Part shown: positions 4,700 through 45,214 of the stretch, in pieces
Layout: every line of letters starts with the position of its first letter
Position numbering within the stretch: position 1 is the first letter of the stretch
Source: Siphonodentalium dalli
Taxonomy: Eukaryota; Mollusca; Scaphopoda; Gadilida; Siphonodentaliidae
Length of the DNA stretch: 64,000 nt
Reading direction: 5' to 3'
Assembly: GCA_032622095.1 (NCBI GenBank)
Contig: CP136068.1
Coordinates: forward strand, 15,047,729 to 15,111,728
The notes under the pieces: model-generated
What the model saw: the letters and a program-made list of their open reading frames with translations, nothing else
The model's database searches: none
Told to the model about the DNA's origin: nothing
Position numbers and translations under genes: made by a program

Positions 4700-4860
4700 T
4701 AAATAGAGGATCTCACATGAGTTTCTATTTTATACGGAATTTATCAACCGAGTTCACTAAATTCGATTTGAGCCGAGGTTTACCGAGGCTCAAATAGAAT
4801 TTAGTGGACGAGGTTGATAAATTGCGTATAAAATAGAAAATGTTTGAGATTCTTTTTATC
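4700..4860. repeat. Foldback hairpin element
   Basis: TTTCTATTTTATACG at 4722 pairs with CGTATAAAATAGAAA ending at 4839. Pairing continues inwards through AATTTATCAACC/GGTTGATAAATT, CACTAAATT/AATTTAGTG and TTTGAGCC/CTCAAA, and outwards through GATCTCA/TGAGATTC. It is a near-complete palindrome of about 160 bp, typical of short foldback or MITE insertions. Confidence 0.75.
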
Positions 4861-5195
4861 AAATGATCATATAATCGCTAAACTTTTATCGAAAAGAACC
4901 GAAAAGAACAACAGTTAACTGCAGCCAGCGAACATTGTCACAAAGAGCAGCGTGACGTCATTGCACGCGACGATATTACACGTGTCTATTACGCTCGAAT
5001 ATTACATCGGAAAATAGTGCTAATCTTGTGATAAAAGTCTGGTATGTTTTGACCATCCTATAACTCGAAGTTGTGTGTGTATTCGAATGGTGATGTTTAG
5101 GATAAAGCGTGGCTACAAATAAACTGACAAAGACCTTGTTGCTGATAAGCCCCATCGCATCAAGTGCATGTCCACATCAAGTAAATCCTGCGTAC

Positions 5196-5441
5196 TGTAG
5201 TAACCTGGCTACAACTCTTGCCCGCAATACCAGATATACTTACACTATCTATTGTCTGTGTATTGTATCTTGGTTCTTTCGCCTGCAGGCAACCTTCACT
5301 ATTGTATTTCTTGTATCATTTCTATGCGTCTGTGTGGTTCATGGTCTGGTGTCAAAGAGTGGCGGGAAATCGGGCTCTAGCCTTGACCTCTCTGACGCCG
5401 GTAAATTTACCGGCGACAGGGAGCGTCCAAAAGATGCCACA
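5196..5441 (-). repeat. 3' LTR
   Basis: 246 bp, TG...CA, identical to the other LTR except A versus T at 5358. It contains a perfect 20-bp palindrome, CGCCGGTAAATTTACCGGCG, at 5396-5415, repeated at 17235-17254 in the other LTR. I see no convincing TATA box or polyadenylation signal. Confidence 0.95.
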
Positions 5442-5453
5442 AATCCCCCCAGT
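5442..5453 (-). other. Candidate polypurine tract
   Basis: Read on the minus strand the bases touching the 3' LTR are ACTGGGGGGATT. This run of purines ends directly at the TG of the LTR, where plus-strand DNA synthesis is primed in LTR retroelements. A second purine run (AAAGGGGAG) lies about 20 bp further upstream. Confidence 0.65.
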
Positions 5454-7374
5454 TTTCAAACTAAGGCTCCCCTTTAAGGACTAGGGTTTTCAAGGGCCAG
5501 CTTGGGGTTTCATTTCAATTAATTTTATCTGTTAAAAATGTCCACCCCCCAAATACTCGATATCTTGCAACTACTATAAATGTCCACCCCCCCCCCCCCA
5601 CAAATGACTAGAATTGACATATAATAAATATATATAAAAATAAACTTATATCAAAACATAACAGGTGAAATACAGGACTACAAAAAATATTGACTCCGGG
5701 AGGGCTGTCAAAAATGTTTCCAAGTCCCAAATTTGCCATATATATCTCGGGCTTGATATTTGCCCCCTAATCTGATCCCAAATTTAATTTCGGGCTTTAT
5801 GCCCCTACCAGCCAAAAAGTCCTACGAGGCCTTATGCCTAGGAATTCCAGATACATGTAGGGCTTTTTGCCCATTTAGTTTTCCACCGATTGGGAAGGGT
5901 ATCTCTCATCATTCTAGAAACTAATTATAACTAGCCCTCCCAAAAAATAGAGCCATGCGTTAATTGCCACCTGAGGAAATAGCACCCGTATTTCTGGACT
6001 AATTGTCCATATCACAAATTATATCACAATTTAAAATCTACATGATTTAGCTATATACAACCTCCCTGGACTACTTGTCCTTGACGGGAGTACAATTCCC
6101 CTGTCCGGGGTAAACATAAATCAGCATTGGGACCTACGAAGGTCCCGTATCGGGACCCGCACCGGTCCCACCGCCATACCTACACGTACGGCCTCATAAA
6201 TAATCATGGAATCTAGTAAGCCTGGTAACCTTTGTACTCGGGAATAGCCTTCTGGGCTTAACTTCGGAGCCCATTCCCCTTAATCCTCACTCTCTACCAT
6301 GCCGCTCATGCCCTGACCCGTATATCTATATACGCTCACTTCCCTCCAATATAATTAAATCAATTTCTTCTTTCCTAATGTCATCTTTCTACATAGACCC
6401 TTTCCTAATGGGATGTTTCCTTTCTTCTTCAATAACCCAGCCCTTGAAACTACATGTATCTCGGGTCTATGCTGTGATCAGAGCATGAGTCACCTCTTCC
6501 ATACATTCAAGTATATACCAGATATTATGACTAACTCCCAGGGTTACCAAGGCTTACTAGTGGGATAAATAGTAGTGCGGGTTGTTTAGGCTATGTGCTG
6601 GAGTTGTGGCTTGGCCATCTCACGTCGGAACGGATCAACCCAACAACTGGACGGGCAATAGGGGAATCCCCTATTCTAGCCCTCCGAACGTCCTTTAAGA
6701 ACTAATCCAATCTTGTATGAATGATTCCCTGCCCAACAATATCCAAACAATATCCAAAAGTCATAACTGATACCCCCAAGAAGGGTTATGGTGTACTCCA
6801 TGACCCCTAATCGTGTCGTAATGAATCGAGCAAGGGTGGAAAGAGGGCAGGAGGCTACCCTACTAATTCCCCGAAAAAATCTCAAAGTCTTGTGTGATCC
6901 AAAATTTTGAACCAATAGTAACTTTACTGTTTGTTAAGAAACCAACAAATTCTGTTAACCATATCTGGACTCACTATGTGAACAATAGATGATTTGTCTT
7001 TTCTATTGTTATCCCCAAAACAATAATTTAAATACTAGTTTGATATCTGATAGTTCCGGGCCATGCCCAATACATTATGGTTCTACTAATGCTAACAGGG
7101 AACTCGTTCCCATACCTAGAATTTAGAGCCCCAATATTTCAAGTCTTTGTGCCTGCCTATCTGGACGTATTACCTTAGTGTGGGTCGAAACCCTCATCAG
7201 GAGCCTCGGTCAAACAAACAGTTACTACATAGTGAAGATGCGGGCCGAAGCCCTGTTCACTTGTGTAACCACTCGACCATTCAATTAGTTAACAAATATC
7301 CATCGACCGAGGACTCCGAAAACTGCAACCTGTGAGACAGCCACTCCCAGCCTAGTACTTATTTACAACCCCCA
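5454..7374 (-). other. 1.9-kb 3' untranslated region of the element
   Basis: Between the ORF3 stop and the polypurine tract no ORF looks like a protein. It holds a C run at about 5586-5601, and two short hairpins made of alternating GGGACC/GGTCCC hexamers at 6129-6169. A pair of inverted repeats with the core CTAGTAAGCC and GGTAACC lies at about 6213-6232 and 6541-6560 and could close a ~350-base loop. The length is unusual for a Gypsy element, so it could hold regulatory structure or the remains of another gene. Confidence 0.5.
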
Positions 7375-9627
7375 CTACCGGTTTGGGGCCTGAAACCTGA
7401 ACAATTGTTCAGCATTTCTAGCCGCCCACCTTACGACATTGACCGGGTCAAGGTTCCGCATTCGGGCAACAAGGTCCACTATGGACCCCATGCCGCTAAA
7501 TGGGAGGAAATGAAACCCTCCCGCCACTTGCAGAACGTTGCAAGTCAGTAACAGCCGGCTCAACGGGATGCTATCCAGACCCACATAGTGGTCCAGATTA
7601 GCACGCGTCGTGCTGGGCCCCAATGCAAAATACACATTGTTGGGCGATACTCCACTCCAACTTGAAACTGTAGTGGCATCGCCCACAAAATCCTGCAGTA
7701 TTACCGGGCCCCTAAAGCCCGACTCCCTGACAATTGATCTGGCTGCGCTGTGGGCATCTAGCCCAAATGGGTCGCAACCAGGACCCTTGACGGCCACATA
7801 CAGTGGCAATCCATTAGCCCCTGCCAGACGGGCGAACTGCCCCAAAGCCCAGTTTTGCAACTGATGGGTTGAGGGCGGGGCAGTTCTGTCCAGACCAGCA
7901 GGACCTATGGCGTCCAACCGGGTAGCCATTTGGGTGATGGCAAAGACCACGTCCTCCAACTCACCCAGATCCGTTCCTATAAAATCCGGGCTCATGCCCA
8001 TGGCTACCCGAAAATTCAGTGGTACTGTTGGTACATGGATGGGAGCGGCCCTACCGGGCCAATCCCCAAACAGCAGCACGCCACCTGCGGCCACTAGAGG
8101 ATATGGATCCCCAGGCCTCGGAACTGCCGACAACAGATCGTCGGGCAGCACCAGGGTGCCCGCGGGAAACCCCACCCGGACCTGGTCCAGGTGCATCCCC
8201 ATGTCCCAATAGTACTCGGATGCCCACTGAGCGTCCGAGCTCCACCGAAAACGTGGCTGACCCATGCATGTAAAGAGCAACTCTGGTGGTGACTGCTCAC
8301 GTGAGTTTGCCCTTACCGAGGCCTCAGGTGATGCCTCACGAACCGGGCTAATAGCCCTTGGGTCAGCCCTAATAACAGGCTGGGGCTCCGGACCCCTTTG
8401 AGGTTCGGGCTCCAGCCCCCCATCAGCATTTGGAGCAAGCTCCGGGTGTTCCAATACAGGGCCCTGGACTGGGGCCTCCAACTCTACCTCCTCCTGGACG
8501 GGCGTTACTGGGCGACTATACCCAGATGGGAGACCGACAGGGGCCACACGCCCGTCCAGCCACATGCGGAGCCACAAAAGGACCCGCCAGTGGCACAAGA
8601 AGGTGAAGTTGGTGACCCCAGAGGCCACCAAGGTACCATCCGTAGTGAAGGATGTTGGCCGGAGATCGTAGGTCCCCTCCATGTTCCGGATGTGGGCCCG
8701 CATCAGCGGGCTCACTAGGAACGGAAGAGGGCCCCCGTTCTCTAGCACCACCTGCGTTATAGCCTCTAGGCTCAACCCGAGGGGCCTAACGAATTCCAGG
8801 AGCGCGTTCGTCTGAACCGACACGGTAACAGCCGAACGACGCTCCAAGGGTTCCCACAGAAGCCTCGGCACGTGTTGCTCGCAGTGACGTCTAATGCCAC
8901 GGACCGACTCCCCACACAGGCTACAGATGGAATCGTTGCCCCGTTTGGTTTTACGACCGGGCCTAGGCTCCGCCCAGCCCGGTGTAACACCTTCCTCACT
9001 GACTGTCCCTGTGGGAGGACGGCCCGTGGCCCCAGCAGCCACGCAAACAACCTCTGTTGCCTTCCTGGTTTCACGGGGAGGCGGCATATCACCTGTGTCG
9101 GTGGGCCGAACCCCCGCATAACCACCCCCGTTGTCCCCCTCACTTGCAGAGCCCCCTACTGGGCCCTCCACTGGGACATCCACCAAGGGCTCCATTTCCT
9201 CAGGTGGAGGACTAGTGCTGCCCGATGTTTTGGGCTTCACTTTAGGCCTAGCACCGTCCCCAATGACTGGGTTCGGCTCTAGTCTATACACTTTGGGCCT
9301 AGCACCGCCCCCTACTACGGGGTTCGGATCTGGTCCATCGTCCCGGGATCCCAAGGTGATCCCTCTCCCCGGAGTACCCCTTACCACTTTAGTGGGAGTA
9401 GATGCCGTCCCACTCTTCGGTGAAGTGTGGGGGCGTTTAGCAACTTCCATTTGGGCGCCCGACAGGGGTAGCTGGGCCTCCAAGGGCCCTTCTACCACTG
9501 CCCCGCCCACATACACTACTGTCTGAATGTCAGACGGGCTTGTCGTAGGTGCGGAGGCCCGTGCGGGCTCCGACCTAGGGGCTTTTTCTAGGGCCCAAGC
9601 CCGTTTCTCCTCCTCGGAACTTGACAT
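7375..9627 (-). CDS. ORF3: C2H2-type finger plus catalytically degenerate TatD-like domain
   Basis: A 750-aa protein with a true ATG (9625-9627). Residues 1-230 are Pro/Gly/acid-rich and include an imperfect repeat of PNPVIGDGARPKV (about 101-113 and 118-130). A C-x2-C-x9-H-x3-H finger follows (C235, C238, H248, H252), then a helical stretch (270-360) and a Pro/Glu-rich linker. Residues ~470-746 follow the TatD DNase order: D475-x-G-x-H479-LD for D-x-H-x-H, VAMGMSPDF (541-549) for VGIHPH, AIGPAGLD (573-580) for xIGExGLD, GLPL (606-609), PVILQDFVGD (641-650) for the HxFxG strand, RLLLTCN (691-697) for RLLLETD, and RNAEQLF (737-743) for ENARRLF. The fold is recognisable, but of the metal ligands only H479 remains; G477, S546, P576, A612, Q645 and N697 replace His, His, Glu, His, His and Asp. 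ORF3 starts 48 nt after the integrase stop. A pseudo-nuclease with a nucleic-acid-binding role is my inference. Confidence 0.78.
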   Translation of the reverse strand: MSSSEEEKRAWALEKAPRSEPARASAPTTSPSDIQTVVYVGGAVVEGPLEAQLPLSGAQMEVAKRPHTSPKSGTASTPTKVVRGTPGRGITLGSRDDGPDPNPVVGGGARPKVYRLEPNPVIGDGARPKVKPKTSGSTSPPPEEMEPLVDVPVEGPVGGSASEGDNGGGYAGVRPTDTGDMPPPRETRKATEVVCVAAGATGRPPTGTVSEEGVTPGWAEPRPGRKTKRGNDSICSLCGESVRGIRRHCEQHVPRLLWEPLERRSAVTVSVQTNALLEFVRPLGLSLEAITQVVLENGGPLPFLVSPLMRAHIRNMEGTYDLRPTSFTTDGTLVASGVTNFTFLCHWRVLLWLRMWLDGRVAPVGLPSGYSRPVTPVQEEVELEAPVQGPVLEHPELAPNADGGLEPEPQRGPEPQPVIRADPRAISPVREASPEASVRANSREQSPPELLFTCMGQPRFRWSSDAQWASEYYWDMGMHLDQVRVGFPAGTLVLPDDLLSAVPRPGDPYPLVAAGGVLLFGDWPGRAAPIHVPTVPLNFRVAMGMSPDFIGTDLGELEDVVFAITQMATRLDAIGPAGLDRTAPPSTHQLQNWALGQFARLAGANGLPLYVAVKGPGCDPFGLDAHSAARSIVRESGFRGPVILQDFVGDATTVSSWSGVSPNNVYFALGPSTTRANLDHYVGLDSIPLSRLLLTCNVLQVAGGFHFLPFSGMGSIVDLVARMRNLDPVNVVRWAARNAEQLFRFQAPNR

Positions 9628-9675
9628 GTCTGTCCGTCAAGGTCAATCTTTTTCTGGAAAAGCGAAATGCATAAT

Positions 9676-11391
9676 TTAGGTGCTAATCATACAATACGGG
9701 CAAAGATAGTTATCAATTTTCTCTGCCTCCTGTTTGTTAATTTTTATGCACCCCCCATGAAACCAGTCTGCACACTTGGCACATTGAATCATGAACCCCT
9801 CCTCGGGTCCCCGACAGATACAAAACAATGGAACGGGTGATCCCCGTATTTGAGAAAGTGCCCTTTGTCTCTCAATCCAGGGTGGTAGGACCCAATCTTT
9901 ACAATGTTTTATGTGATCATGATTCACAGTCTGGGTTTTGGTGCAAAACTGAATCTCAAATAGGAATGTGCTGAACTTTTTGGTTATAATCCCCGGGCCC
10001 TTCCAGACAGGGTTTAGCTTCTTGGCTTGCCCCTTTTTGGTCCCAAAGTCCAGAACATACACCAAGTCGCCCGGTACATATTTGTTCATTCGGGCCGACT
10101 TGTCACATCGCTTCTTTTGGTAGCGTTGTTGCGTTCTCAGTTTCTGTCGGGCAAATTCATGTGCCTCTAGCATTGAATTCTCTAGCAAATTCACCAGTTC
10201 GCTGGTGGTATGACACGGTTGCTTTGGCGGGGGTCCAAACACTAGATCCGCGGGCTGATAGACTTCGCGACCCAACATGAGTTTATTGGGCGTAAAGCCC
10301 GTGCTCCTGTTGACGGAAGAGCGTATCGCGCCTGCTATTTGTGGGACGTAAAGGTCCCAAGTATTTTGTTTGGTACCCAAGTAGCACCGTACGGCGTCCA
10401 TTAATGTTCGGTTCATACGTTCGATTTGTCCATTAGAACTGGGCCTCCAGGCTGTGGTCCTGGTCTTATTTATTTGTAAGGCCCGACAGATATTTTGAAA
10501 TAGCTCGCTTTCAAAGTTGGAACCGCGATCGCTATAGATTTCCAATGGACAGCCAAAACGTGAAAAAACTTCGTTGACCAAAGTTGTCGCTGTTATCTCT
10601 GCTGTTTGCGAAGGCAGGGGCAGACACTCAATCCACTTGGTGAATTGGTCGGCCACCATTAAAACATGTTCATTTCCTTTGGCCGTTTTAGGCAACGGCC
10701 CTAAAAAGTCAATATGAAGCCTTTCCATGGGCGCCCCTGCATGATAACTAATTAGTTCATGTTTGACTTTGCGCACCGGACGTTTACATTTACTGCACTT
10801 CGGGCAAGAAGCCACATAATTCTCCACATCGGTCCGAAGCCCTATCCAAAAATATTTCGATTTAACTTTTTCTAGGGTTCGTTGCATACCCTGGTGACCA
10901 GATGTAGGCGGTTCGTGATTTAAGGTTAAAACCTCACCTTTCAGGGTGTATGGGATTACTAACACCAAATCGCCATATTTTCTTTCTTTATAAAGTAACC
11001 CACCCTGTAGTGAATATTTCTGTTTACTCGCCCACATTTGCTTAGTTTTGGAACTAGCTAGAAATAATTCAGATTTCCCGGGCTCTGTTTTTTCCAGGGC
11101 CCACTGGTATATTATTGCCAAATCAGAATCATCTTTCTGGTGTTTTTCAATATCTTCCGGGGACTGATCTCCCATTGGGTTAGTCAAATCCAGTGTTTTA
11201 GTCGCTTGGGAGCTAGGGTCATTCACGACTTCTGCTCCCAATAGGTGAGTGTTGAACCGATTTTCGCCTTGCGACGTTTCCCATGGTGAATCTAGTTCAA
11301 AACCCTGACTTATTTCTATCAGTTGGTTTACATCTAGCGTATCTAGCGTTGGGTTAATTTCTGGGGCTAATCTACTGGTTGTAGCCCCCTG
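9676..11391 (-). CDS. Integrase with C-terminal PHD finger
   Basis: The frame is open from 11391 without an ATG, so it is best read as a -1 continuation of Pol; the residue numbers used here count from the TTG at 11241 (521 aa). It has the HHCC zinc domain (H109, H116, C146, C149), a DDE core with D178, D238 and E274 (D-x59-D-x35-E, the canonical spacing), and a GPY/F-like segment around 411-419. At the C-terminus, where chromoviruses carry a chromodomain, lies a complete C4HC3 PHD finger: C474, C476, C487, C490, H495, C498, C514, C517. The DWFHG motif with W493, plus M484 and F473, resembles the methyl-lysine cage of KDM7/PHF2/PHF8-type fingers that bind H3K4me3. The protein inserts the cDNA into chromosomes; steering by histone marks is inference. 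All catalytic residues are intact. Confidence 0.93.
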   Translation of the reverse strand, partial: QGATTSRLAPEINPTLDTLDVNQLIEISQGFELDSPWETSQGENRFNTHLLGAEVVNDPSSQATKTLDLTNPMGDQSPEDIEKHQKDDSDLAIIYQWALEKTEPGKSELFLASSKTKQMWASKQKYSLQGGLLYKERKYGDLVLVIPYTLKGEVLTLNHEPPTSGHQGMQRTLEKVKSKYFWIGLRTDVENYVASCPKCSKCKRPVRKVKHELISYHAGAPMERLHIDFLGPLPKTAKGNEHVLMVADQFTKWIECLPLPSQTAEITATTLVNEVFSRFGCPLEIYSDRGSNFESELFQNICRALQINKTRTTAWRPSSNGQIERMNRTLMDAVRCYLGTKQNTWDLYVPQIAGAIRSSVNRSTGFTPNKLMLGREVYQPADLVFGPPPKQPCHTTSELVNLLENSMLEAHEFARQKLRTQQRYQKKRCDKSARMNKYVPGDLVYVLDFGTKKGQAKKLNPVWKGPGIITKKFSTFLFEIQFCTKTQTVNHDHIKHCKDWVLPPWIERQRALSQIRGSPVPLFCICRGPEEGFMIQCAKCADWFHGGCIKINKQEAEKIDNYLCPYCMIST

Positions 11392-13988
11392 TCAATAACT
11401 GTCTTGATGTTAGTCCCATTGCTAACCAGTTTATCCTGTGATGGTGGTTCCAATGGCCATGACCTCCCCTGTATCGTCTTATGGACAAATTTGTGCGGCA
11501 GTGGAACTACATCATCCACTTCCTCAAAAAACCGAGCCCAGTTTTGATGTACTCTGGTACAGTACTTACACCCAGCACATGGTAAGTTTTCTAAGGGTAC
11601 CCCAGCCCGGTAATTTCCACACTCATCCTCCTCTGGAATTCGAGATAGAATATCGGCATTCAAATGTTTAGACCCCGCCCTATGTATGACCGTAAAGTCA
11701 TACTGACTTAGTTCTTCTAACCAACGGGCAATTTGCCCTTCGGGTTTTTTAAAACCCAATAACCACCTTAAACTAGAATGATCTGAACGTATTGTAAACG
11801 GGCGGCCTAATAACCAATACTTGAATTGCCGGGTAAATTTGACAACGGCTAGCAGCTCGAGACGAGTTGCACAGTACTTCTTTTGTTCCGGGGTAGTTCC
11901 ACAACTTCCATAGGCTATTACCCTTTCCTTGCCATTCTGTACTTGAATCAATTCCCCACCGAGCCCTCTTGCCGACCCATCTGTATCGAGGATAAAGGGG
12001 TCTTCTGTATTTGCAAATGTTAATACCGGAGGGGTACTCAAAGCTAGCTTCAGGGCTATAAAAGCCCTTTCTTCTACCTCGCCCCGCGCAAAAAGGTTGT
12101 TAGCAGTTTTCGCATACAATGGCGCGGCTAAGGTAGCGAAATCTTTGCAAAAAACCCGGTGGTAGTTACAATATCCCAGAAAACGTTCCACGTCCTTGGT
12201 ATTACCCAGCCTAGGCCATTCCCGTATAACCCGGGAGGCCTGTTCTCCCATTTCCATCCCTAGGGGCGAAACTGTTCGACCTAGAAATTCCATTTCCTGT
12301 TGAAAAAGCACACACTTTTTGGGCTTTAGGCGAAGCCCATATTGTCTAAATCGATCTAAGACCTCTCGCAGATTTCGAAACATTGACGGAACATCTAAAC
12401 TCATCACTGATACATCGTCAATAAATGCCAAGGCAGTATCCCATAATAACCCCTTAAGCACTAGGTCCATAACTCTCATGTAAGTACTAACCGCACCACA
12501 TAAGCCGTAACTCATTTTGGTCCATTCAAAAAGCCCATATTTTGTTATAAATGCCGTTTTATTACGGTCTTCGGGCCTAATGTTGACCTGAAGGTACGCC
12601 TGATTTGAATCCAGTTTGGACCACCATTTATTCCTAGAAATCGTCTGTATACAGTCATCGACTAGTGGTAACGGGTAAACATCTTTCGTAGTGACCGAGT
12701 TTACCCCGCGAAAATCTAATGCCCACCGTACCGCCCCACATCGCTTACGTATCAACACTGGGGCCGAGCTCCATTCAGAAACACTAGGTTGAATAACCCC
12801 AGATTTGAGCATGTTTTTCAACAACTGCTCTTCTTCATCAGCAAAACAAGCGGGCGTACGACGCATTCTACATTTGATGGGTTTTGCGTCTCCTGTCGGA
12901 ATGGTATGTTCAATGGCCGAAAATTCGCCCAAGTCGTCATTATTTTTCGCAAAGACATCACTATATTCCACAAGTAATTCCCGTAATTTCATTTGTTCCA
13001 AATCTGTGAGCAGCTTTTTAGAGCGCTCAAACAAATCCACTAAATGAACGGGTAACTCGTCGGAGCTATTTATACTCATATCTGGGTCATGTCTTGGGGG
13101 TTCCATCTCTGAGTCGGGAGGTTCGGCATTGATACCACTGTTAGATAAAACCTCCCGTGAAACTGCAACATTTCCCACCGTAATGTCAGAAACCGGGGCC
13201 CCTGCAAAAGATTCCAATCCCTCACTTTCATAAGCTATGCCGATGGCCCACCCTGCCTTTAAAATTACGGGCTGTTCTGTTGGATTTATGAAAACCAAGA
13301 CTGGATCCTTATTGGCTTGCTGCCATGTTCGGGGTATCAAAAGCTTCCCCCTATCAAAGGGTTCTATAAGGTAATTGACCGGAATAGAACTTACTTTACA
13401 AGTTACATATTTGATTGAAAGTGGCGGGAACTCTTCACGAGTTCCCAAGGTTACTGTCATTTTGGCCATTTGTCCTTCACTTGAAAGCATGATGGGCACT
13501 TGTTCCCCTGCTAAATACATTTGATTATTTTCCAAATCTAACTGGGCCCCGAATTCCTTTAAGAAATCCAAGCCCAAAATCATTGGTGTGTTTATCGGCG
13601 CAACATAAAAGGTTCGGATATACCACTTTGTTCCCAGTTTCATTTTTAAAGGACCAACGACTTTACCCGGCAAAGTGTTTAAGTCGCGCCCCACCGTACG
13701 GACCTCAATGGTTTTGATCACAACAGGCTTGGGCTCGATCAGAGCCAAAACTTCATCTGCAATAATACTGACTTGCGCACCGGTATCTATTAAAGAATCT
13801 AATTGTACATTGCCAAGAATTGTGGGTACGGTAAAAGACAATTTTTCAGTTAATTGCTGTATAGTTATACTATCCGGGAAATCCGTTTTATGAAGGAATT
13901 CCCGTACCGGTATCTCTGAGCTAGGTTCAACATCAGGGCTGGCCGGAGAAGCACCTAGGCCTCCTCCGACCCGCTGTCGTTTAACTCG
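11367..13988 (-). CDS. Pol part 1: aspartic protease, reverse transcriptase, RNase H
   Basis: The frame is open from 13988, overlaps the gag end and has no ATG of its own; residues here count from the TTG at 13841 (824 aa). The protease active site DTGA is at 19-22 and the flap/second half ILGLDFL at 88-94. RT motif A is SKLDSNQAY (D411) and motif C is FIDD (473-476), a Phe variant of the usual YxDD. RNase H keeps all four acidic residues: D621, E662, D687 and D730. After RNase H comes a short Cys cluster (C755, C758, C761) that I do not recognise. It copies the RNA genome to DNA in cytoplasmic particles. All catalytic motifs are intact, which fits the near-identical LTRs. Expression is presumably as a Gag-Pol fusion through the -1 site at 13979-13985. 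Confidence 0.95.
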   Translation of the reverse strand, partial: RVKRQRVGGGLGASPASPDVEPSSEIPVREFLHKTDFPDSITIQQLTEKLSFTVPTILGNVQLDSLIDTGAQVSIIADEVLALIEPKPVVIKTIEVRTVGRDLNTLPGKVVGPLKMKLGTKWYIRTFYVAPINTPMILGLDFLKEFGAQLDLENNQMYLAGEQVPIMLSSEGQMAKMTVTLGTREEFPPLSIKYVTCKVSSIPVNYLIEPFDRGKLLIPRTWQQANKDPVLVFINPTEQPVILKAGWAIGIAYESEGLESFAGAPVSDITVGNVAVSREVLSNSGINAEPPDSEMEPPRHDPDMSINSSDELPVHLVDLFERSKKLLTDLEQMKLRELLVEYSDVFAKNNDDLGEFSAIEHTIPTGDAKPIKCRMRRTPACFADEEEQLLKNMLKSGVIQPSVSEWSSAPVLIRKRCGAVRWALDFRGVNSVTTKDVYPLPLVDDCIQTISRNKWWSKLDSNQAYLQVNIRPEDRNKTAFITKYGLFEWTKMSYGLCGAVSTYMRVMDLVLKGLLWDTALAFIDDVSVMSLDVPSMFRNLREVLDRFRQYGLRLKPKKCVLFQQEMEFLGRTVSPLGMEMGEQASRVIREWPRLGNTKDVERFLGYCNYHRVFCKDFATLAAPLYAKTANNLFARGEVEERAFIALKLALSTPPVLTFANTEDPFILDTDGSARGLGGELIQVQNGKERVIAYGSCGTTPEQKKYCATRLELLAVVKFTRQFKYWLLGRPFTIRSDHSSLRWLLGFKKPEGQIARWLEELSQYDFTVIHRAGSKHLNADILSRIPEEDECGNYRAGVPLENLPCAGCKYCTRVHQNWARFFEEVDDVVPLPHKFVHKTIQGRSWPLEPPSQDKLVSNGTNIKTVIDRGLQPVD
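11385..11389 (-). promoter_or_regulatory. Candidate -1 frameshift site between RNase H and integrase frames
   Basis: The Pol frame stops at a TAG (11367-11369) while the integrase frame is open from just after a TGA (11392-11394), so any shift must occur in this 22-base window. It contains AGGGGGC: a GGG codon that can re-pair on GGG after slipping one base back. The relation between frames is -1. It is not a standard X-XXY-YYZ heptamer, so the exact slip site is inference. Confidence 0.45.
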
Positions 13989-16369
13989 TCATCGGAAAAA
14001 TGCACATTTTGTGATCGTATAGTAGACGTTCGGGTCTGATCGTTTTCCGTATTGGGGTTTGAGCCTTTATTGCCGGGGCGCTTAGTGGGACACTCTCGCG
14101 AGTAATGCGAAGACGACCCACAGGTCCAGCAGCCCTGTCGTCGGGGTGATGGAGAACGCCCCCTGTCATTACGCGGTTCGGGAGACCGTGACAGCTTAAG
14201 AGTCAATGTCGCCATGTTTTCGGTCATGCGCTCCACCGAAGTTTGCACCCCCTTCATGCTATCTAACATACTAGTTGTCAAAGTCTCAAGGTTCGAACTT
14301 AGTTTACTAAGTTCGCTCCTTTCGTGAGGCTCCGAACCGTTGTTTCTCGCAACTATGGTTCCTGTTGATTGCATTAATTGTAATCTAGGGCGACCCGATT
14401 GGTTTTTGCCCTTTGTATCACTAGTTATTTTATCCGGGTCCTTACTCTGACCGTAAATCGCAAGCGAAGTATGTTGATACCATTTAACGCTATCGATGGC
14501 CTTTTCGATTGATCGCGGGCGCGCATTTGCAGCATACAAGCCTGCCTCCTTATCCAGACCCCCATGACAAAATCTCAGTATTGCTTGGGCAAACATGTGC
14601 TCCTCTGGCAAATTACCATAGGCACGTACGGCCAATGTTAACACATGATCTGCCCATTCTTCCAATTGTTGACCTGTTTGCTGTTGCGCTTGCAAGAATT
14701 GTATTTGCGCCGTTTCGGGCAAATCAATCATCCCAAATCGTTTTTCCAATTTGCGCATAATGTTTCGCAAAGACATCCAAGGGTCTTGTTTCAACATTGT
14801 CGCAAAGTACTCGCTGGCCTTACCTTGTAAGCACCAGCACAAACAATTAATGCTTTCCTGTTCATCCCAACTTTCATAGTCCCTCATGTGTCTAAATTTC
14901 AGTTGGAAGGGCTGCCAGCTTTGACTGCCATCATACTCCAAAGTTTTGGGGATTCTCGGAGCCCGTCTCGGTCTAACATCCCGATTATTGTTTGGACCTA
15001 ATCGGTCATTATCACCAGACCTGATATCTTGAGGGCCCCGGCCCATATGAAAGGCTGGGCCCGGACGACCCCTTTCCCGATCCCACTGATTATCATCATT
15101 TTCTCGGTCACGACGGCCCTCAAATTGGGCCTGTCTTCTGGGCGGACGGTCTTCAAAATCCGAATCTTCGCGATCGTCATATTCGTCGCGACCCCTATTC
15201 CGGAGGCGCCTATTTGCACCACCCCCATCGGATGGAGACCGGTTGCGGCGAAACCTATCTGGATGATCATTATTACCCGATCTATCTCGATCCCTAAACC
15301 TCGGTCGCCCATCTACATGATTGTCACGGGACTGCGACCGTCCCCGTGGAAATCTATCACGGTTATGCTCAGCCGACCTTTCTCGATCTCGATATCGAGG
15401 TCGCCTATTCGAATGATTGTCTCGGGACTGAGACCGTCCACGTGGAAACCCATCCTGTATAAGATCTTCCCTGAAATCATGCATCTCCCTAACCCTTCGC
15501 CCACCTGTTTGTTGGCCACGCGGACTGGGTGGGGCGTTATTCGACCGTTGACGCCTTTCTTGATGTTCCACAGCCCTGCTTACTGGGCTATGTTGCCGAC
15601 CACTATGCGAATGGTGCACATTTGATCTCTCGCGTCGGTGCGTCTGGTCACGATTTCTACTATCGCGACCCCGTGATGGTCGAGAGTTACGATCGACGCG
15701 AAGATTGCCAAAATCCTGTTCCAAGTCGAAATCAACTGGGCTTGTAGCCTTTATTTGTCCCCACACGCCCCCTCCCCGAAACCTCGGTATTAGAATTGGC
15801 GGGGTAAGGATCGCGAGACATGTGGCGATTATGACGGTCGCCATCGTATTGGGCGAAATCATCTGACTGATTGCCGAGTGGAACCCGGGACTTAGGACGC
15901 GTTCGACCTTGGGCTGGGTGCCTCCGTGAATCCTCATATGAGGGGGCGGCTCACCGTATGGTGGTCCGACATCTATCTGGTCACTCCTACGGCGGACAGA
16001 ATCGGTAGCATGTAACCAGGGCGGCACGATACGAGCATCACTACTGGAATGCGGGGGAACGTCGCCCTCAGAATCCGATGAAAGTGCTCGCCTCAATGGC
16101 GCATCCTGGATTGAAACTCGGCTATCTCCCCGAGATGGCAAAACAACCGAGTTATTTGGGTGTGGGAGCAACTTGAACTGCCCCCGATCCCTATCAGAAT
16201 TTGATGGCTGCTGCTGATCATGTTCAGCAGCTCTGTCTGCATCACAGGAATATGAGCAGCGGGATCGTGCATCATTATCCCCATTTGAATGCGGGAACCA
16301 ATCTATTAGTGCTAATAAACCCTCGTGATCTTGACTTCCCGAACTGCCCGTAAAGTGTCTTCGGACAGA
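13955..16369 (-). CDS. Gag with SR-like arginine-rich tract, capsid and CCHC knuckle
   Basis: The frame is open from 16369 and its first ATG is only at 15935-15937; residues here count from the TTG at 16171 (738 aa). Residues ~108-130 are hydrophobic. Residues 160-405 are dominated by Arg, Asp and Ser, with two copies of a ~33-aa unit starting FPRGRSQSRDNH (242 and 274), resembling SR-protein RS/RD tracts. A helical capsid region of the Retrotrans_gag type covers ~405-575 (W419, W446 and the acidic/aromatic helices after it). A CCHC knuckle C681-x2-C684-x4-H689-x4-C694 follows and should bind the RNA genome. The frame overlaps ORF0 by 58 bases in the -1 relation and no ATG lies in its first part, so Gag may begin by frameshift from ORF0, at a non-ATG codon, or at the internal ATG. 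Confidence 0.9.
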   Translation of the reverse strand, partial: SVRRHFTGSSGSQDHEGLLALIDWFPHSNGDNDARSRCSYSCDADRAAEHDQQQPSNSDRDRGQFKLLPHPNNSVVLPSRGDSRVSIQDAPLRRALSSDSEGDVPPHSSSDARIVPPWLHATDSVRRRSDQIDVGPPYGEPPPHMRIHGGTQPKVERVLSPGFHSAISQMISPNTMATVIIATCLAILTPPILIPRFRGGGVWGQIKATSPVDFDLEQDFGNLRVDRNSRPSRGRDSRNRDQTHRRERSNVHHSHSGRQHSPVSRAVEHQERRQRSNNAPPSPRGQQTGGRRVREMHDFREDLIQDGFPRGRSQSRDNHSNRRPRYRDRERSAEHNRDRFPRGRSQSRDNHVDGRPRFRDRDRSGNNDHPDRFRRNRSPSDGGGANRRLRNRGRDEYDDREDSDFEDRPPRRQAQFEGRRDRENDDNQWDRERGRPGPAFHMGRGPQDIRSGDNDRLGPNNNRDVRPRRAPRIPKTLEYDGSQSWQPFQLKFRHMRDYESWDEQESINCLCWCLQGKASEYFATMLKQDPWMSLRNIMRKLEKRFGMIDLPETAQIQFLQAQQQTGQQLEEWADHVLTLAVRAYGNLPEEHMFAQAILRFCHGGLDKEAGLYAANARPRSIEKAIDSVKWYQHTSLAIYGQSKDPDKITSDTKGKNQSGRPRLQLMQSTGTIVARNNGSEPHERSELSKLSSNLETLTTSMLDSMKGVQTSVERMTENMATLTLKLSRSPEPRNDRGRSPSPRRQGCWTCGSSSHYSRECPTKRPGNKGSNPNTENDQTRTSTIRSQNVHFSDDELNDSGSEEA
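13979..13985 (-). promoter_or_regulatory. -1 programmed frameshift heptamer GTTAAAC between gag and pol
   Basis: On the minus strand the gag codons read GAG TTA AAC, so the heptamer G-TTA-AAC is in the correct phase for a -1 slip. It lies inside the 34-base overlap of gag (stop TAG at 13955-13957) and pol (open after a TGA at 13989-13991), and the two frames differ by exactly -1. GTTAAAC is a known functional slip site in arteriviruses. I did not fold the downstream RNA, so the stimulatory structure is unverified. Confidence 0.7.
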
Positions 16370-16533
16370 TTACCCACCCGGGCCCTTTGCAAAATAATAG
16401 ATCTTGCTCTACGCCGATCAATTCCCGGTAAGACCAAAAGAGCCTCGTAATGGCATGTATTTATCTGAACACGGGGCTCCGCGGGTTCAATGTCAACCCC
16501 AGAACCCGAGCTTACGGAATGATTCGCTGCCAT
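16312..16533 (-). CDS. ORF0: small helix-hairpin-helix protein upstream of gag
   Basis: An ATG-started frame (16531-16533) of 73 residues. About residues 23-66 match the ComEA-type helix-hairpin-helix pattern: INTCHYEALLVLPGI followed by DRRRARSIILQRARVG and LSEDTLRAVREV, i.e. the IN-A-x-x-x-EL-x-x-LPGI hairpin and the following AxxII-x-x-R helix. Such modules bind the DNA backbone non-specifically. It is the first protein frame after the leader and overlaps the gag frame by 58 bases (16312-16369) in the -1 relation, so it could be made alone or as the N-terminus of Gag. I see no standard slippery heptamer in the overlap. HhH domains are not a usual part of Gypsy elements; function is inferred only from the fold. 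Confidence 0.75.
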   Translation of the reverse strand: MAANHSVSSGSGVDIEPAEPRVQINTCHYEALLVLPGIDRRRARSIILQRARVGNLSEDTLRAVREVKITRVY

Positions 16534-17018
16534 TTCGAAAAAAGTGGCCACCACAAATACTCCAAATCAAAAAAGCAAAATTGGAGGGCAAAAATTGTTG
16601 AAAAATTGTACAAAAAATGCCACAGACAAAAAAACATGTAAAGCTGGGATGAAACTCGGATTATATCCAAGGAAAATCCCTTCACGACGTGTGGACAATA
16701 ACAAAACGTGTAGACGAAGACGTATTGAGGACAACGACGTAATAGGACAACACAATGTGATCTGCTTGACAAAATCTATCTCAAAAAGTTGCAAGTAAAT
16801 CTGGAAATAACGGGCAAGTAATTATGCGCCAAACTGCTGTAATGTAGCAGAAAAGGTATCGGTAAGTACCAATATTATATAGGAATCAACCAACGATTCA
16901 ACAAGGGACGGATGTCCCCGGATTTAAAAACGGGACTTAAGAAAAATCCCGACCTCAATGACGGCCATTGCTGTCAGACGCATTGTCAACGCGAGAATTA
17001 CGGTAGCAAATTCGGTTT
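16534..17018 (-). other. 5' leader of the element
   Basis: About 485 bases lie between the primer-binding site and the ORF0 ATG. Several short frames occur on both strands but none resembles a protein. By position it should hold the packaging and dimerisation signals; I cannot identify them. Confidence 0.6.
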
Positions 17019-17031
17019 ACTCACAGCGCCA
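17019..17031 (-). other. Primer-binding site, complementary to a tRNA-Ser 3' end
   Basis: The plus strand reads ACTCACAGCGCCA three bases before the LTR. It equals the 3' end (acceptor GCTGTGA arm, G discriminator, CCA) expected for an animal tRNA-Ser of the CGA type, so on the minus strand the template begins TGGCGCTGTGAG. The match weakens beyond about 13 bases. The assignment to Ser rests on my recall of tRNA sequences. Confidence 0.7.
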
Positions 17032-17034
17032 ATT

Positions 17035-17280
17035 TGTAGTAACCTGGCTACAACTCTTGCCCGCAATACCAGATATACTTACACTATCTATTGTCTGTGT
17101 ATTGTATCTTGGTTCTTTCGCCTGCAGGCAACCTTCACTATTGTATTTCTTGTATCATTTCTATGCGTCTGTGTGGTTCATGGTCTGGTGTCAAAGTGTG
17201 GCGGGAAATCGGGCTCTAGCCTTGACCTCTCTGACGCCGGTAAATTTACCGGCGACAGGGAGCGTCCAAAAGATGCCACA
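17035..17280 (-). repeat. 5' LTR
   Basis: 246 bp, one mismatch to the 3' LTR. It drives transcription leftwards. It is followed on the plus strand by GTAC (17281-17284), the right-hand target duplication. Confidence 0.95.
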
Positions 17281-17284
17281 GTAC

Positions 17285-28226: not shown

Positions 28227-28863
28227 TCACCGGCTATGTGTAAACGTCACCTCAGGTATCAGGTTGAAAAGACGGAAATATACTGGGGCCATGAGGTCAA
28301 ATGTTACCTTGATGTACTCATTTCTAACACCATTAACGCCCGGCGATTTACCTTGTTTAATGAACTTGACCGCGTCATGAATTTCCTGTAGCGTAAAATC
28401 AGCATTAAGTGGTGATATTATTGATTGTGAGTCTAATTCTACTTTTTCTTCCTGGTGTGGGAGAGATTTGTTTTTCTGTTTGAAATAATCATAGAATTCC
28501 GGTAATAATGGCGTACTTTTACAAGTGTTTTTACCATTAACTGAGTGGAGTAGCTTCCAGTAGTCACGGGCATTTGCTGATTTTGCTTGTTTTTTTCTAT
28601 CAACCATGTTGGTATCATATTGCTGTTTACTCAAACGTAGCGTCCGTTTGTAAATATTTCTGGCGTTGAGCATTTCATGTTTATTCAGAGCGGTCGGATT
28701 ATTTCTAAATATTTTACGGGATTTACGGTATTGGCGCCTGGTATTGTTACAGTCTTTTGACAACCATGGCAAATGTGTACGTGTTTTATTTTGTTTATTT
28801 GTATATGGCTTTGGTCGCGCACCACATACAGAACATGCAGAATTCATATACAAACATTTTAAT
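28227..28863 (-). pseudogene. LINE fragment: EN-RT linker and start of the reverse transcriptase
   Basis: The 208-codon frame ends with a typical non-LTR RT N-terminal block: FTLQEIHDAVKFIKQGKSPG, then NGVRNEYIK, matching the LKxGKSPGxDGIxNEYIK box of CR1/Jockey-like LINEs. It is preceded by a basic linker with PWLSKDC. The homology stops at about 28250, so the catalytic FADD region is missing and the copy is truncated. Its upstream part is cut by the hAT-like insertion at 28864, and the endonuclease of the same copy continues at 30001. Confidence 0.85.
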
Positions 28864-30000: not shown

Positions 30001-30925
30001 TTATCATTTACATCAGAAATTCCCGATGGCGCAACACACTGTCTATCATCTATGTCATCTAAATATGCTATGGGCCTCATGGTCAAGAGCATGTGTAAAA
30101 TCATCAACCATTAAGGGGTCACATGGGTTAATTTTAACGGGCATTGAGTTATTTCTTTGATCTGTTGTGTCTATAGAGTCGGGGGTTGGTTCGCGACTAT
30201 AAGAGTTCTGGGCTAACGATAATCGGAATGTGATTGATCCGTGGACGTCGGACAAGAGATTATTGTATGGTTGTACAGATGATATGGATCAACGAACTCT
30301 CATTGAACAGAAGATAATCAACCACGCTAACATTCCTGCATGTCACGTGGCCGATACGTTTGTCTGATCCTAGTCTGCCATTTCCGATATACAGGTCGGC
30401 GGATTTGCTTAAATCGATCAAACTGTACCCAAAGTTATCAGTTTTCTTGTCCTAAGAGGCTCTTGGCTCAAGTGATTTGGAAAACTAATTTTCGGATGGA
30501 ATATGATCAATAAGTTTAGCGGTTCTTGAATTAAAGTCTCCAACCAAAATTTAAAAAAGTACTACCTTCGGGTGGTATATACACGTTACCAATTATCAGT
30601 GGTTTTATTCCACATATTTTGAACCAGACGACATATTCACAAGCATATTCTATTTTCTCAACTAGTCCAAATATTTCATCTTTTACCAAAATTGCAAGTC
30701 CACCCGACCTATACTTCGAAATAGTTTTTCTATTCTGAATTAATAATGTTTGACAACCAGGTACATGTATATGAATATCATCTGCACTATCAGTTTTGGT
30801 CTCCTGAATGTATAAAATGTCATACATGGAAACAAATTCATGGAATTCGGGGTCATTCAGCTTAGATAGAATACCACCAACATTCAGTGATAATATTTCT
30901 AACCCTGTACATACATCAGAATCAC
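30001..30925 (-). pseudogene. LINE fragment: apurinic-type endonuclease domain
   Basis: Reading leftwards, the domain starts near 30920 with a LSLNVGGI...DPEFHEFV-like segment, then ILYIQETKTDSADD, SGGLAILVKDEI and IIGNVYIPPEG (30531-30827). It then has GDFNSRTAKLIDHIP (about 30490-30540) and a GNGRLGSDKRIGH...SVVDYLL end (about 30310-30400). These are the N, QETK, GDFN and VVDYLL motifs of LINE endonucleases. Several shifts of frame separate them, so the copy is dead. The LINE is interrupted at 30942 by a foldback element and at 29993 by the hAT-like element. Confidence 0.85.
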
Positions 30926-30941
30926 AATCCCTTAGGAGCTA

Positions 30942-41789: not shown

Positions 41790-42735
41790 GTAAGTTACCA
41801 TTTTAATGTTTTAGTTTTTTTTCGAAATTATTGACATGGCCATAATAGGAAATGTATGAGAAGCACTCTTTATTGGTTTTTCATGTCATAAAATGGGATT
41901 TCCCTTTTCAATACATATAATCCATGGGTATTTTCCATGCAGTTATAAACATTTCCAGCACAACTTTTTTCATATGCGTTTTTCAAAAATCTGTTATGGA
42001 ATGGAACTACTTATCATCTGGAATAATTTTTCATCATCTTTTTGTCTTCTTCAATAATATCCTAACAATTTCTGAATAGTGCTGTGGTTGAGCGCTCAAA
42101 GTTGTCAGTCTATGCATCAAAATATCGTAGGTGAAATTCAAAGATGACATCGATGATTACTTTCACCAATCTTCAACTGCGGCGATGCTATTCCATCTAA
42201 AATTGTTTTATGCCGGTGAATGAAATACTGAAGTTGAACTTATCAACTAATAAGAATTTGCATTTTAAAGGAAATATTCAACTCGACAATATTACAATAT
42301 GACATGAATGTGCTATTCCATTGACCATTCCATGACAGGAGCTTCTAAAATGTTGCGAAAACCATGTGGCAATGCATTCTCTTATATATGCAAGTCTCCC
42401 TATGGGATACTCACATGTATAATAGAATGCACTGACATATGATCTTTAATGCACCAACGCAGTTCCCGTCATGAAAGGATTAATATCTCATGAGGCCATG
42501 TATATTGTTTCTATGCACATTTCTGATTTTGTATTACAGTCATTTTGCTTCAGATATTACCAATCATTAGAAAAGAAATTAACTTTACAAAACTTGACCC
42601 TCCACTATTAAGTTGGACATGGATGGATGGATGATAACTCAATAAATCGTTCCAAATAATTATCAGGTGAATATTCACCATAGTTAGTTCTAGATTACTG
42701 TTTTCATGATCATGTTCTCATCATTTATAAATCAG
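41790..42735 (+). other. Intron between Ig exons 2 and 3
   Basis: GTAAGT...ATAAATCAG borders, about 0.95 kb, AT-rich. A stretch near 42380-42430 (GCATTCTCTTATATATGC, ..ATAATAGAATGCAC) resembles one near 38850-38960, so it carries a diverged dispersed hairpin. Confidence 0.65.
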
Positions 42736-42987
42736 GGTCTCCAGTCGTGTCGACCTCACCAAGTGGAAATGTAGTAATAGTGAGAGGTGATAAGATAACA
42801 CTGACAGTAACAGCTCAAGATGGGAATCCGAACAGCTACACATACCAATGGACAAAAGACAAGATTCATATTGGCAGCGCCCAATCAACTACCCTGACAG
42901 TGAGCACACCTGGCAGTTATACATGTGAGGTGCGCAATGGAGGACGACTCAAAATTACACCTGCAACAGTGGTTGTGGAGCAGCATT
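42736..42987 (+). CDS. Ig-superfamily gene, Ig exon 3
   Basis: An acceptor AATCAG ends at 42735 and a donor ATT|GTGAGT starts at 42988. The 252-base exon is again phase 1-1. It encodes an Ig domain with core Trp (YTYQWTKDK), F-strand GSYTCEVRN and G-strand ITPATVVVE. The B-strand reads DKITLTVTAQD, with Val where the disulfide Cys should be. So domains 1 and 3 each lack one canonical Cys while domain 2 is complete. A further exon must follow because the donor is strong, but I see no transmembrane or additional Ig exon downstream in the window. Confidence 0.8.
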
Positions 42988-45214
42988 GTGAGTTTCTAGT
43001 TTTTCTTCATAATATGCATACAGGTAATGCTTGGTGATAACGCAATCTGCTTGATTAATCTTGCGGACTGTTTGGATGCGAGTAGACTCCGATATACCTA
43101 TGGTTTAGTCATATAATCACATTCCACACATGTTGTTTTACGGTTCGCAAGCAACGCAAGTATACTTGTGACGTCACTAATTTCTGTAGTCTATCAACAT
43201 GTTTTGTTTTTACATCCGGGCGATTCGGACCTATGGTCACATATGTGACCCTATAGGCAAATAACATCGAACCAGCCTGTAAAATGAATTGAAAATATTA
43301 GCAAAACGAATTTATTTTTCTTCTTCGATCAGCCTCCCCATAGCAACACTATTAAATTTGAAAAAACAAAATCACCCTTATTCAAAATTAAATGATTAAT
43401 GTGGATTTAATTGACCTAGTCGCACACCATGCGTCAAACATCGTCAGATTCCGTAATGTTTCAGCTTGAAATTACGTTCCCTGGCCTATAGCAACGTTGC
43501 AAATGGTGACGTAATTTTCGTTAGTTATTGGCGAATGCGATTAAATTTTCTCCATTGTGGTTCTCGTGCTGAATTTTGTTGGTATATGATTAGACATACA
43601 TTGTGTGTGAAGCCTCCAGACTTCTGAAGTTTAACAGTGAAAGTGAAACTCAGTCAGTCGGAAAGAAATTGAATGATGAATCTGTGACTGAATAAACATT
43701 GAACATGAATGTCACTGGTGTCAGTGGTGACTGGACAGAGGGCTGGTCTGTGGTGATTTGATTTGTTCTGTTAATTTTAAGTCTGTATTACCTGGACTGG
43801 TTGGTGTTGCAAGCGGCAAAATGTGCCTTCTACTTCTCCAAATTGAATTGTTAATAGCTGACACGGGTCAAGGAAATCAGAAAATGGACATTTTAAACCT
43901 GACTGGTTTACTCATTTCGTGATTAGTAAATTTAGATTTAAACGACTTCAGACTCAGCCTCAATCACTCACTGTGACTCGGGTCAAAAAACAATTCCAGC
44001 CATCTACAGACTAGTCTACATGCAAACGTGACAAACACGTGACGTCGTGTGAACTGCTGACAAACTAAATGAGTCAATTAACTTGGTTAGTGAAGGAAAA
44101 GAAAAACATCTCCCATTCGGTCTCGGCACACTGCAGAGTGTAGTGACTAGTGAGAGGGTATGTTTCCAACTTTCAATCTGTGAATTCTGAATCATGTGAT
44201 GGACAAATCAAGTTAAACATAATAAATATAATGCATTAACCGTTTAATGGTGATTTGTTTTACCATTCTCACCTAATATATATTTCATGATTCTGACACT
44301 TTGTTCTCAGTTTAAATTTAAGCATTAAGCGGGAGCATGACCTGGCTTCGGTTTAATGTGAAATCCGCAAACGTGTATGCATGCGCTCCTGATTAATGAG
44401 TAGTAATCGTATAGAAAACGCCCCGAAGCTACCACTATTGCACAATATAAGTGCCTGTCATCTACTGAATGTGGTCCGAAATTATGTCTCATTAAGTCAT
44501 TGTGCCCCACCCCACGTAACTCGCTGAAAGTCAAGCATACATACATTTCTATAAATAAATCAGATGTGGCAATGTGAAATATGCAAAATTGTATTTTCAA
44601 AATATGAACATCAAAATATTGAAGTGTGACAAAGAGGGACAATTTTTCCCTCGCTTTTTCAAAATACGGACATAAAAATATTGAAGTGTGACAAAGAGGG
44701 ATATTCATAAACTTCGAACTCAGAAAGTTGTTTCAGTGGACAGGGATATCTTTCTCACAGTGGACATGGATACAAACGATATATGTTTTTAAAAAATGGG
44801 ACATTTTGAAGTACAAAGAGGGAGAGTCAAAATTAGAGTGAAAATACACGCGATTTGCTGACAATATATTTTCCTTTTTAAAATTTAATATCTGAATAAC
44901 GGTGATATGTATACGAATATACGGGCAATATCCAGACACGACGTCGTCTCAAGATTGGCCAAATCCCTTTTGTTCTAAATATCTAATTGTTATACTAACT
45001 GACCTATCATGTACGTACTCTGCATTGGGAATAAAAACAAACATTACCTTGCATTGTAGTTAGATGCTTTAGACTGTAGATAGCATATACTGAAAATATC
45101 AATGATACACTAGCTTGACTTACGACAATGACTATGAATTGAATTCAACCTTGTCAACCTCCATGACAAAATTCATGATAATATGAATGAGTGTCCATGA
45201 CACTGAATATGCTT
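42988..45214. other. Downstream interval, mostly AT-rich
   Basis: No exon recognised. Near 44590-44710 the sequence AATATTGAAGTGTGACAAAG is repeated twice ~70 bases apart within a GTCCxxxTTTTC-type repeat that is also seen near 49370-49460. Confidence 0.4.

Follow-up and report, generated by a model that had tools for sequence, protein, structure and literature searches.

Structure of the element

The window analysed here is a 64,000-nucleotide stretch of contig CP136068.1 (forward-strand positions 15,047,729 to 15,111,728) from assembly GCA_032622095.1 of the scaphopod mollusc Siphonodentalium dalli; unless stated otherwise, coordinates are those of the window. Within it lies a Ty3/Gypsy element that is young, its long terminal repeats (LTRs) being nearly identical, and the third open reading frame (ORF3) of which encodes a finger followed by a TatD-derived protein. 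The metal site of this protein was lost before the present copies diverged, and the protein is under purifying selection.

The element spans positions 5196-17280 and reads on the minus strand. As the preliminary description of this DNA had stated, it is of the Gypsy type with LTRs differing at one base; the LTRs are 246 nt in length, and together with the target-site duplication and the placement of reverse transcriptase before integrase they are those of a Ty3/Gypsy element. A domain search of the window's frames gave the coding order gag, protease-reverse transcriptase-RNase H, integrase and ORF3. The RNase H and the integrase lie in different frames (positions 11367-11391), whereas pol of the related locus L125 is a single frame, and this difference may be a lesion or a frameshift signal. 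The 1933 nt between ORF3 and the 3' LTR (5442-7374) contain no internal frame of 110 codons or more, and no tRNA or Rfam matches were identified in the window. All features are collected in Table 1.

Features of ORF3

ORF3 (7375-9627) is an intact frame of 750 codons without a stop, as first described, and the longest stop-free stretch in 500 sequences simulated from its dinucleotide composition was at most 342 codons. Its GC content is 59.6%, compared with 44-51% for gag and pol and 37% across positions 18000-64000, which may point to a separate origin or to differing codon usage. The C2H2-type finger that had been placed ahead of the TatD domain is confirmed by its residue pattern, without a hit to any Pfam model. 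A basic patch (RKTKR) is located at residue 225, ahead of the finger, and similar fingers occur in other ORF3 families of the same genome. These families also feature HW motifs between the finger and the TatD domain when inspected by eye; a scripted pattern search gave no match.

Two GTRAGT donors are found in the first 3 kb of the element, one of them just after the 5' LTR, and the candidate acceptor TTTCGCTTTTCCAG shares ranks 3 to 6 of 391 [CT]AG sites by pyrimidine count. The candidate donor near the 5' LTR and the acceptor before ORF3 would together give an envelope-style spliced message. A hydropathy scan identified no clear signal peptide or membrane span in ORF3: the highest 19-residue mean is 1.41 and falls inside the TatD domain, the first 30 residues are polar, and two N-glycosylation motifs are present. 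The lack of clear membrane features, combined with the basic patch and the finger, points to a nucleic-acid-binding protein.

A TatD domain without its active site

The C-terminus of ORF3 had been assigned to the TatD family in the preliminary description, which proposed a profile search and a structure prediction as checks. The assignment holds: PF01026 matches the whole of ORF3 with 28.4 bits and residues 445-750 with 31.4 bits, over a cut-off of 27. TIGR00010 matches with 19.1 bits (E 6.8e-4), far under its cut-off of 206, and a phmmer search of ORF3 against PDB sequences returned no match. Scored against a profile of 70 TatDs, the domain reaches 14.0 bits, compared with no more than 2.0 for 300 shuffled sequences and -3.2 for the reversed one. 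Single-sequence structure prediction of the C-terminus gave TatD-like models at low confidence, which align best to TatD structures; the predicted model has the alternating strand-helix pattern and was scored as a TatD-type TIM barrel. Chance similarity to TatD was ruled out by the profile scores against shuffled sequences and by the predicted fold aligning best to TatD structures.

An alignment with 44 bacterial TatDs (44 of 80 fetched) was used to compare the active site; of its 37 columns with a conservation of 88% or more, 20 are unchanged in ORF3 and 17 are altered. The replaced catalytic columns include S546 (H in 43 of 44), which we take to belong to the active site but not to the metal ligands, as well as P576 (E), A612 (H), K614 (R), Q645 (H), T695 (E) and N697 (D), each of which is invariant in all 44 bacterial sequences. 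D580, Q591 and H479 are kept. Where a TatD enzyme has the metal ligands E, H, H and D along with HxH or GxN, ORF3 therefore has P576, A612, Q645, N697 and GxH. The earlier claim that metal ligands are replaced stands for the first four of these; G477 taken alone is no proof of a loss, because 18 of the 44 bacterial TatDs have G at this position, with N at the position of residue 479. This GxN motif is carried by class I TatDs (PMC10085689). Unlike G477-x-H479, HxH is found in all 25 aligned TatDs of the same genome. Profiles of class I and class II TatDs score ORF3 alike (9.1 and 10.6 bits), the motif in the window copy being GxH. Residue L699 is private to the window copy, with P in the other 8 intact copies.

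Copies of ORF3 and selection

The assembly searched comprises 2.23 Gb in 9 contigs. With 60 of 378 first-look candidates scored, at least 73 ORF3 matches were found, nine of which (the window copy included) are full length, free of stops and 98-100% identical; many others are broken. The same search gave two relatives at approximately 32% identity (L092 and L093), referred to here as family 2. A side observation from this search concerns G000:C5:259651840-259706381, where six ORF3 fragments of equal score follow one another in steps of approximately 10.83 kb; they form a tandem array whose unit includes part of the element.

The nine intact copies differ by 20 silent and 26 replacement changes, where neutrality predicts approximately 26% silent (p 0.006), and their TatD parts by 8 silent and 8 replacement changes (p 0.03), both in tests that ignore shared ancestry. 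The integrase piece present in 8 of the intact copies shows 10 silent and 4 replacement differences. For the TatD part, the ratio of nonsynonymous to synonymous substitution rates (dN/dS) between the window copy and diverged copies, down to 61% identity, is 0.24-0.40 in seven of the nine comparisons tried (L097 gave no value and L092 was saturated). The N-terminal part of ORF3 gave 0.15-0.63 in five of six comparisons, with no value for L095. The one unsaturated pair of ligand-keeping TatDs had a dN/dS of 0.053, the other four of the five pairs being saturated.

Position 576 is in the changed state in 5 of 5 readable diverged copies, 612 in 7 of 7, 645 in 6 of 7 and 697 in 7 of 8. The exceptions are L096, with D at 697 and L at 645, and L095, with R at 614 and W at 479. 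As the ligand losses are mostly common to the diverged copies and dN/dS is below 1, the losses are old and the protein has been kept. The collection of copies, ligand comparison and dN/dS analysis suggested in the preliminary description thus support its proposal that the domain is maintained for something other than hydrolysis; the nucleic-acid or protein binding that it named is a use that we infer.

Family 2 extends this picture to a more distant element. L092 is 33% identical to ORF3 in the C-terminal part and 40% in the N-terminal part, and the pol products are closer (57% for the integrase of L093, 56% for the reverse transcriptase of L092). An integrase with a PHD finger precedes ORF3 in L093, the same order as in the window. 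Both family-2 copies examined are damaged, with ORF3 listed in pieces in each. Neither ligand-poor family has the E, the two H or the R of the TatD centre; family 2 keeps D at 697.

Ligand-keeping relatives in the same genome

A Pfam TatD search of the assembly, in which the best 150 of 529 candidates were scored, gave at least 150 matches, all over the cut-off at 112-188 bits; ligand-poor families are under-represented among these, and the window ORF3 lies outside the list. Reading the list shows 138 of the 150 best to be without an internal stop, and many of the matches belong to open frames 700-1492 codons long, which are found again, with identical scores, on several contigs. From 41 loci (L103-L143), 25 representatives were aligned, leaving out near-copies and partial ones; among these are four CCCH-finger TatDs without a shown pol and two (L111 and L129) of another lineage. 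All 25 keep the HxH, the H of GxHP, E, H, R, H and the acid pair.

Upstream DNA was analysed in 11 stretches hand-picked from the score and frame-length groups of the TatD matches. A Gypsy integrase is encoded upstream on the same strand in 9 of the 11, with a PHD finger in 8; in the other two, L158 and, upstream of a CCCH-finger TatD, L159, no Gypsy integrase was found within 3-4 kb. L124 and L125 encode reverse transcriptase, integrase, PHD finger and then a TatD ORF3. In L123, TatD and pol share one frame and the PHD finger is missing, so that this copy may have suffered an internal deletion. The window ORF3 fits a group defined here, the finger-TatD ORF3 of PHD-integrase Gypsy elements, with a PHD integrase upstream and a finger, HW motif and TatD domain in order. 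Given that TatD-bearing ORF3 is frequent and the active site is kept in 25 of 25 representatives, the window copy appears to be an offshoot of the TatD-carrying Gypsy elements in which catalysis was lost, and not a one-off.

A tree built from 35 TatD domains pairs ORF3 with family 2 (support 100/100), and the pair sits within a set of 21 rows (100/99), the other 19 of which keep the ligands. A Gypsy pol is shown upstream for 11 of these 19; for the remaining 8, the tree is the sole basis of their placement. The bacterial TatDs, the CCCH-finger TatDs and the pair L111/L129 fall outside the set. The approximately unbiased test disfavours a topology in which the ligand-poor pair groups with the bacterial rows (p-AU 0.025); it does not separate a position inside the 19 ligand-keeping rows from one beside them (p-AU 0.243). 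The ligand-poor branches are long.

Two further groups of TatDs were observed. L103-L108 encode intact-site TatDs in frames of approximately 300 residues with a CCCH-like finger in front, and the 4 kb of upstream DNA taken at L103 (L159) contained no Gypsy pol; these may be host genes or another mobile family. L109-L113 and L129 form a second TatD lineage with C2H2-like fingers, with frames of 513 residues in L111 and L112. The pieces upstream contain an integrase C-terminus at L111 and L112 and a Gypsy reverse transcriptase at L113, and since the pair L111/L129 falls outside the main set, there may have been more than one acquisition of TatD.

The ORF3 of L124 also encodes a KptA/Tpt1 RNA 2'-phosphotransferase domain (PF01885, E 7.6e-48) in the same frame as TatD (L124:625-5100, minus strand). 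The assembly contains at least 83 PF01885 matches (150 of 154 candidates scored), and a side-by-side comparison of both match lists pairs 23 of the 83 with a TatD match by contig, strand, neighbourhood and frame length (693 to 1492 codons). The domain search gave no KptA/Tpt1 match in the window ORF3.

Comparison with known systems

Most accessory genes found in LTR elements encode an envelope or are short additions to the integrase. Gypsy elements that carry Env, such as the errantiviruses, likewise have a third ORF after pol that is possibly spliced; ORF3 differs from theirs in having no membrane features by hydropathy. With other invertebrate Ty3/Gypsy elements the window element shares the LTRs, the GTAC duplication, gag and the protease-reverse transcriptase-RNase H-integrase order. 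It differs from them in an integrase that ends in a PHD finger and in a third ORF that is a finger-TatD protein; some of its relatives have the KptA/Tpt1-like domain in the ORF3 frame. Neither 'PHD' nor 'TatD' occurs in the main text of surveys of mollusc and annelid elements (PMC6238403, PMC8556966). Ginger1 DNA transposons similarly join a Gypsy-type integrase to extra C-terminal domains including PHD; they differ as DNA transposons with OTU or Ulp1 proteases, and TatD is unmentioned in the portion of the source available (PMC2836005).

ORF3 has in common with the TatD family (PF01026; class II HxH, TATDN2/TATDN3) the profile match, the motif order and the strand-helix pattern, and differs from it by its lost catalytic residues, the finger in front and its location in a retrotransposon. 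The long N-terminal extension of ORF3 also resembles that of TATDN2 (PMC10085689).

No relatives of ORF3 were found in the protein database with residues 445-750, 530-710 and 220-365 as queries. Viral contigs gave no relatives of ORF3, pol part 1 or the integrase, and GTDB contigs none of ORF3; when the queries were TatD domains from five ORF3 families, viral contigs gave five relatives at 27-30% identity. A literature search that left KptA, Repbase and most subscription papers outside its scope turned up no description of a TatD carried by a retrotransposon, and within the same limits no matches for TatD with pseudoenzyme or with LTR retrotransposon. Several Gypsy families of one genome carry TatD, some with an RNA-repair-type domain, and in one lineage the domain has lost catalysis yet stays under selection. 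Such elements offer a way to test what benefit a nuclease brings to a retrotransposon and by what route a mobile element comes to contain a pseudoenzyme. Some 'putative deoxyribonuclease TATDN2' calls in invertebrate genomes may be transposon ORFs; one such call is listed among transposon-like genes of the giant squid Hox cluster (PMC6962438).

Possible functions of ORF3

In the window lineage, ORF3 is probably a non-cutting binder or scaffold under selection, its catalysis having been lost; the binding itself is suggested by the domain content. The protein would be made from spliced RNA, using the donor near the primer-binding site and the acceptor between integrase and ORF3, and would bind nucleic acid through the finger and the barrel. 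It could, for example, shield the ends of complementary DNA (cDNA) or recruit host repair factors. TatD enzymes are 3'-exonucleases and apurinic/apyrimidinic endonucleases (PMC10085689). The probable task of TatD in the ligand-keeping relatives is to trim or nick DNA or an RNA-DNA hybrid while cDNA is being made, at integration or in repair, and abasic sites, a guess from TatD biochemistry, might be another substrate. A broader reading, which we advance tentatively as falling a little short of probable, is that the third genes of these Gypsy elements are acquired nucleic-acid-processing enzymes (TatD, partly with a KptA/Tpt1-like domain) that process RNA-cDNA intermediates of the element itself or counter host defence, with at least one lineage turned into a pure binding pseudoenzyme under selection.

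The near-identity of the nine intact copies would also be expected if ORF3 were a decaying passenger, its domain useless and its frame open merely from the youth of the copies. The broken state of many other copies, the damage in both family-2 copies and a dN/dS of the pseudo-domain above the 0.053 of the active pair fit such decay as well. Decay is nonetheless unlikely: the seven comparisons reaching down to 61% identity stay at 0.24-0.40 even though broken copies inflate the value, the ligand losses are mostly shared while 20 of 37 conserved columns are kept, and family 2, at 33% identity, retains the integrase-PHD and then ORF3. That ligand-keeping and ligand-poor forms coexist in one genome, and that finger and barrel are both retained, would suit an inhibitor or decoy directed, by pairing or by competition, at an active TatD, whether from related elements or from the host; with BLASTP identity to three ligand-keeping forms of only about 24-27%, this appears quite unlikely.

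Retention of some other chemistry, metal-free or with metal bound differently, could account for D580, Q591 and H479 being kept and for the D at 697 in family 2, and is judged very improbable given the residues of the TatD centre missing from both ligand-poor families. An envelope-like protein that resembles TatD by accident would agree with the position of ORF3 and with the candidate splice acceptor ahead of it; the hydropathy scan revealed no clear signal peptide or membrane span and the TatD match is well above chance, which makes it extremely improbable. The envelope candidate was rejected on the absence of membrane features in that scan.

Feature coordinates and other features of the window

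Table 1. Annotated features of the Ty3/Gypsy element in the window.
Feature	Position	Strand	Basis or remark
5' LTR	17035..17280	-	246 nt, 1 mismatch vs other LTR
3' LTR	5196..5441	-	Match to 5' LTR
GTAC target-site duplication, two sides	17281..17284 + 5192..5195		Read from flanking letters
Putative primer-binding site (TGGCGC...)	17014..17031	-	Directly after 5' LTR; putative function
Candidate splice donor GTGAGT	First base 17024	-	Overlaps putative primer-binding site
gag-like ORF	13955..16171	-	PNMA match; CCHC knuckle below cut-off; start TTG assigned mechanically
pol part 1: protease (matches below cut-off), reverse transcriptase, RNase H	11367..13841	-	Domain search
pol part 2: Gypsy integrase + C-terminal PHD finger	9676..11241	-	Frame differs from part 1
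Candidate splice-acceptor AG (TGCATTTCGCTTTTCCAG/AAAAAG, exon from 9653)	9654..9655	-	Between integrase stop and ORF3 ATG
ORF3, 750 aa	7375..9627	-	Stop-free frame
50-nt repeat, two copies (82% alike), 51-nt step	9238..9338	-	In-frame 17-residue duplication, N-terminal part of ORF3
C2H2-like finger, residues 235-252 (C235-x2-C238-x9-H248-x3-H252)	8872..8925	-	Pattern match
HWR motif, residues 346-348	8584..8592	-	Seen by eye
TatD-like domain without catalytic residues, approximately residues 470-747	7387..8220	-	Profile and alignment
Putative polypurine tract (..ACTGGGGGGATT)	5442..5454	-	Before 3' LTR; putative function

Elsewhere in the window, fragments resembling non-LTR retrotransposon proteins are located at 28227-28853, 30534-30938 and 62873-63208; they include two weak Exo_endo_phos matches below the cut-off, and 28227-28853 is without a Pfam match. 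Inverted repeats are found at 257-482 (arms of 73 nt, 86%) and 4722-4839 (arms of 58 nt, 88%), and positions 42684-43034 hold an exon-like frame with a match to an Ig domain.
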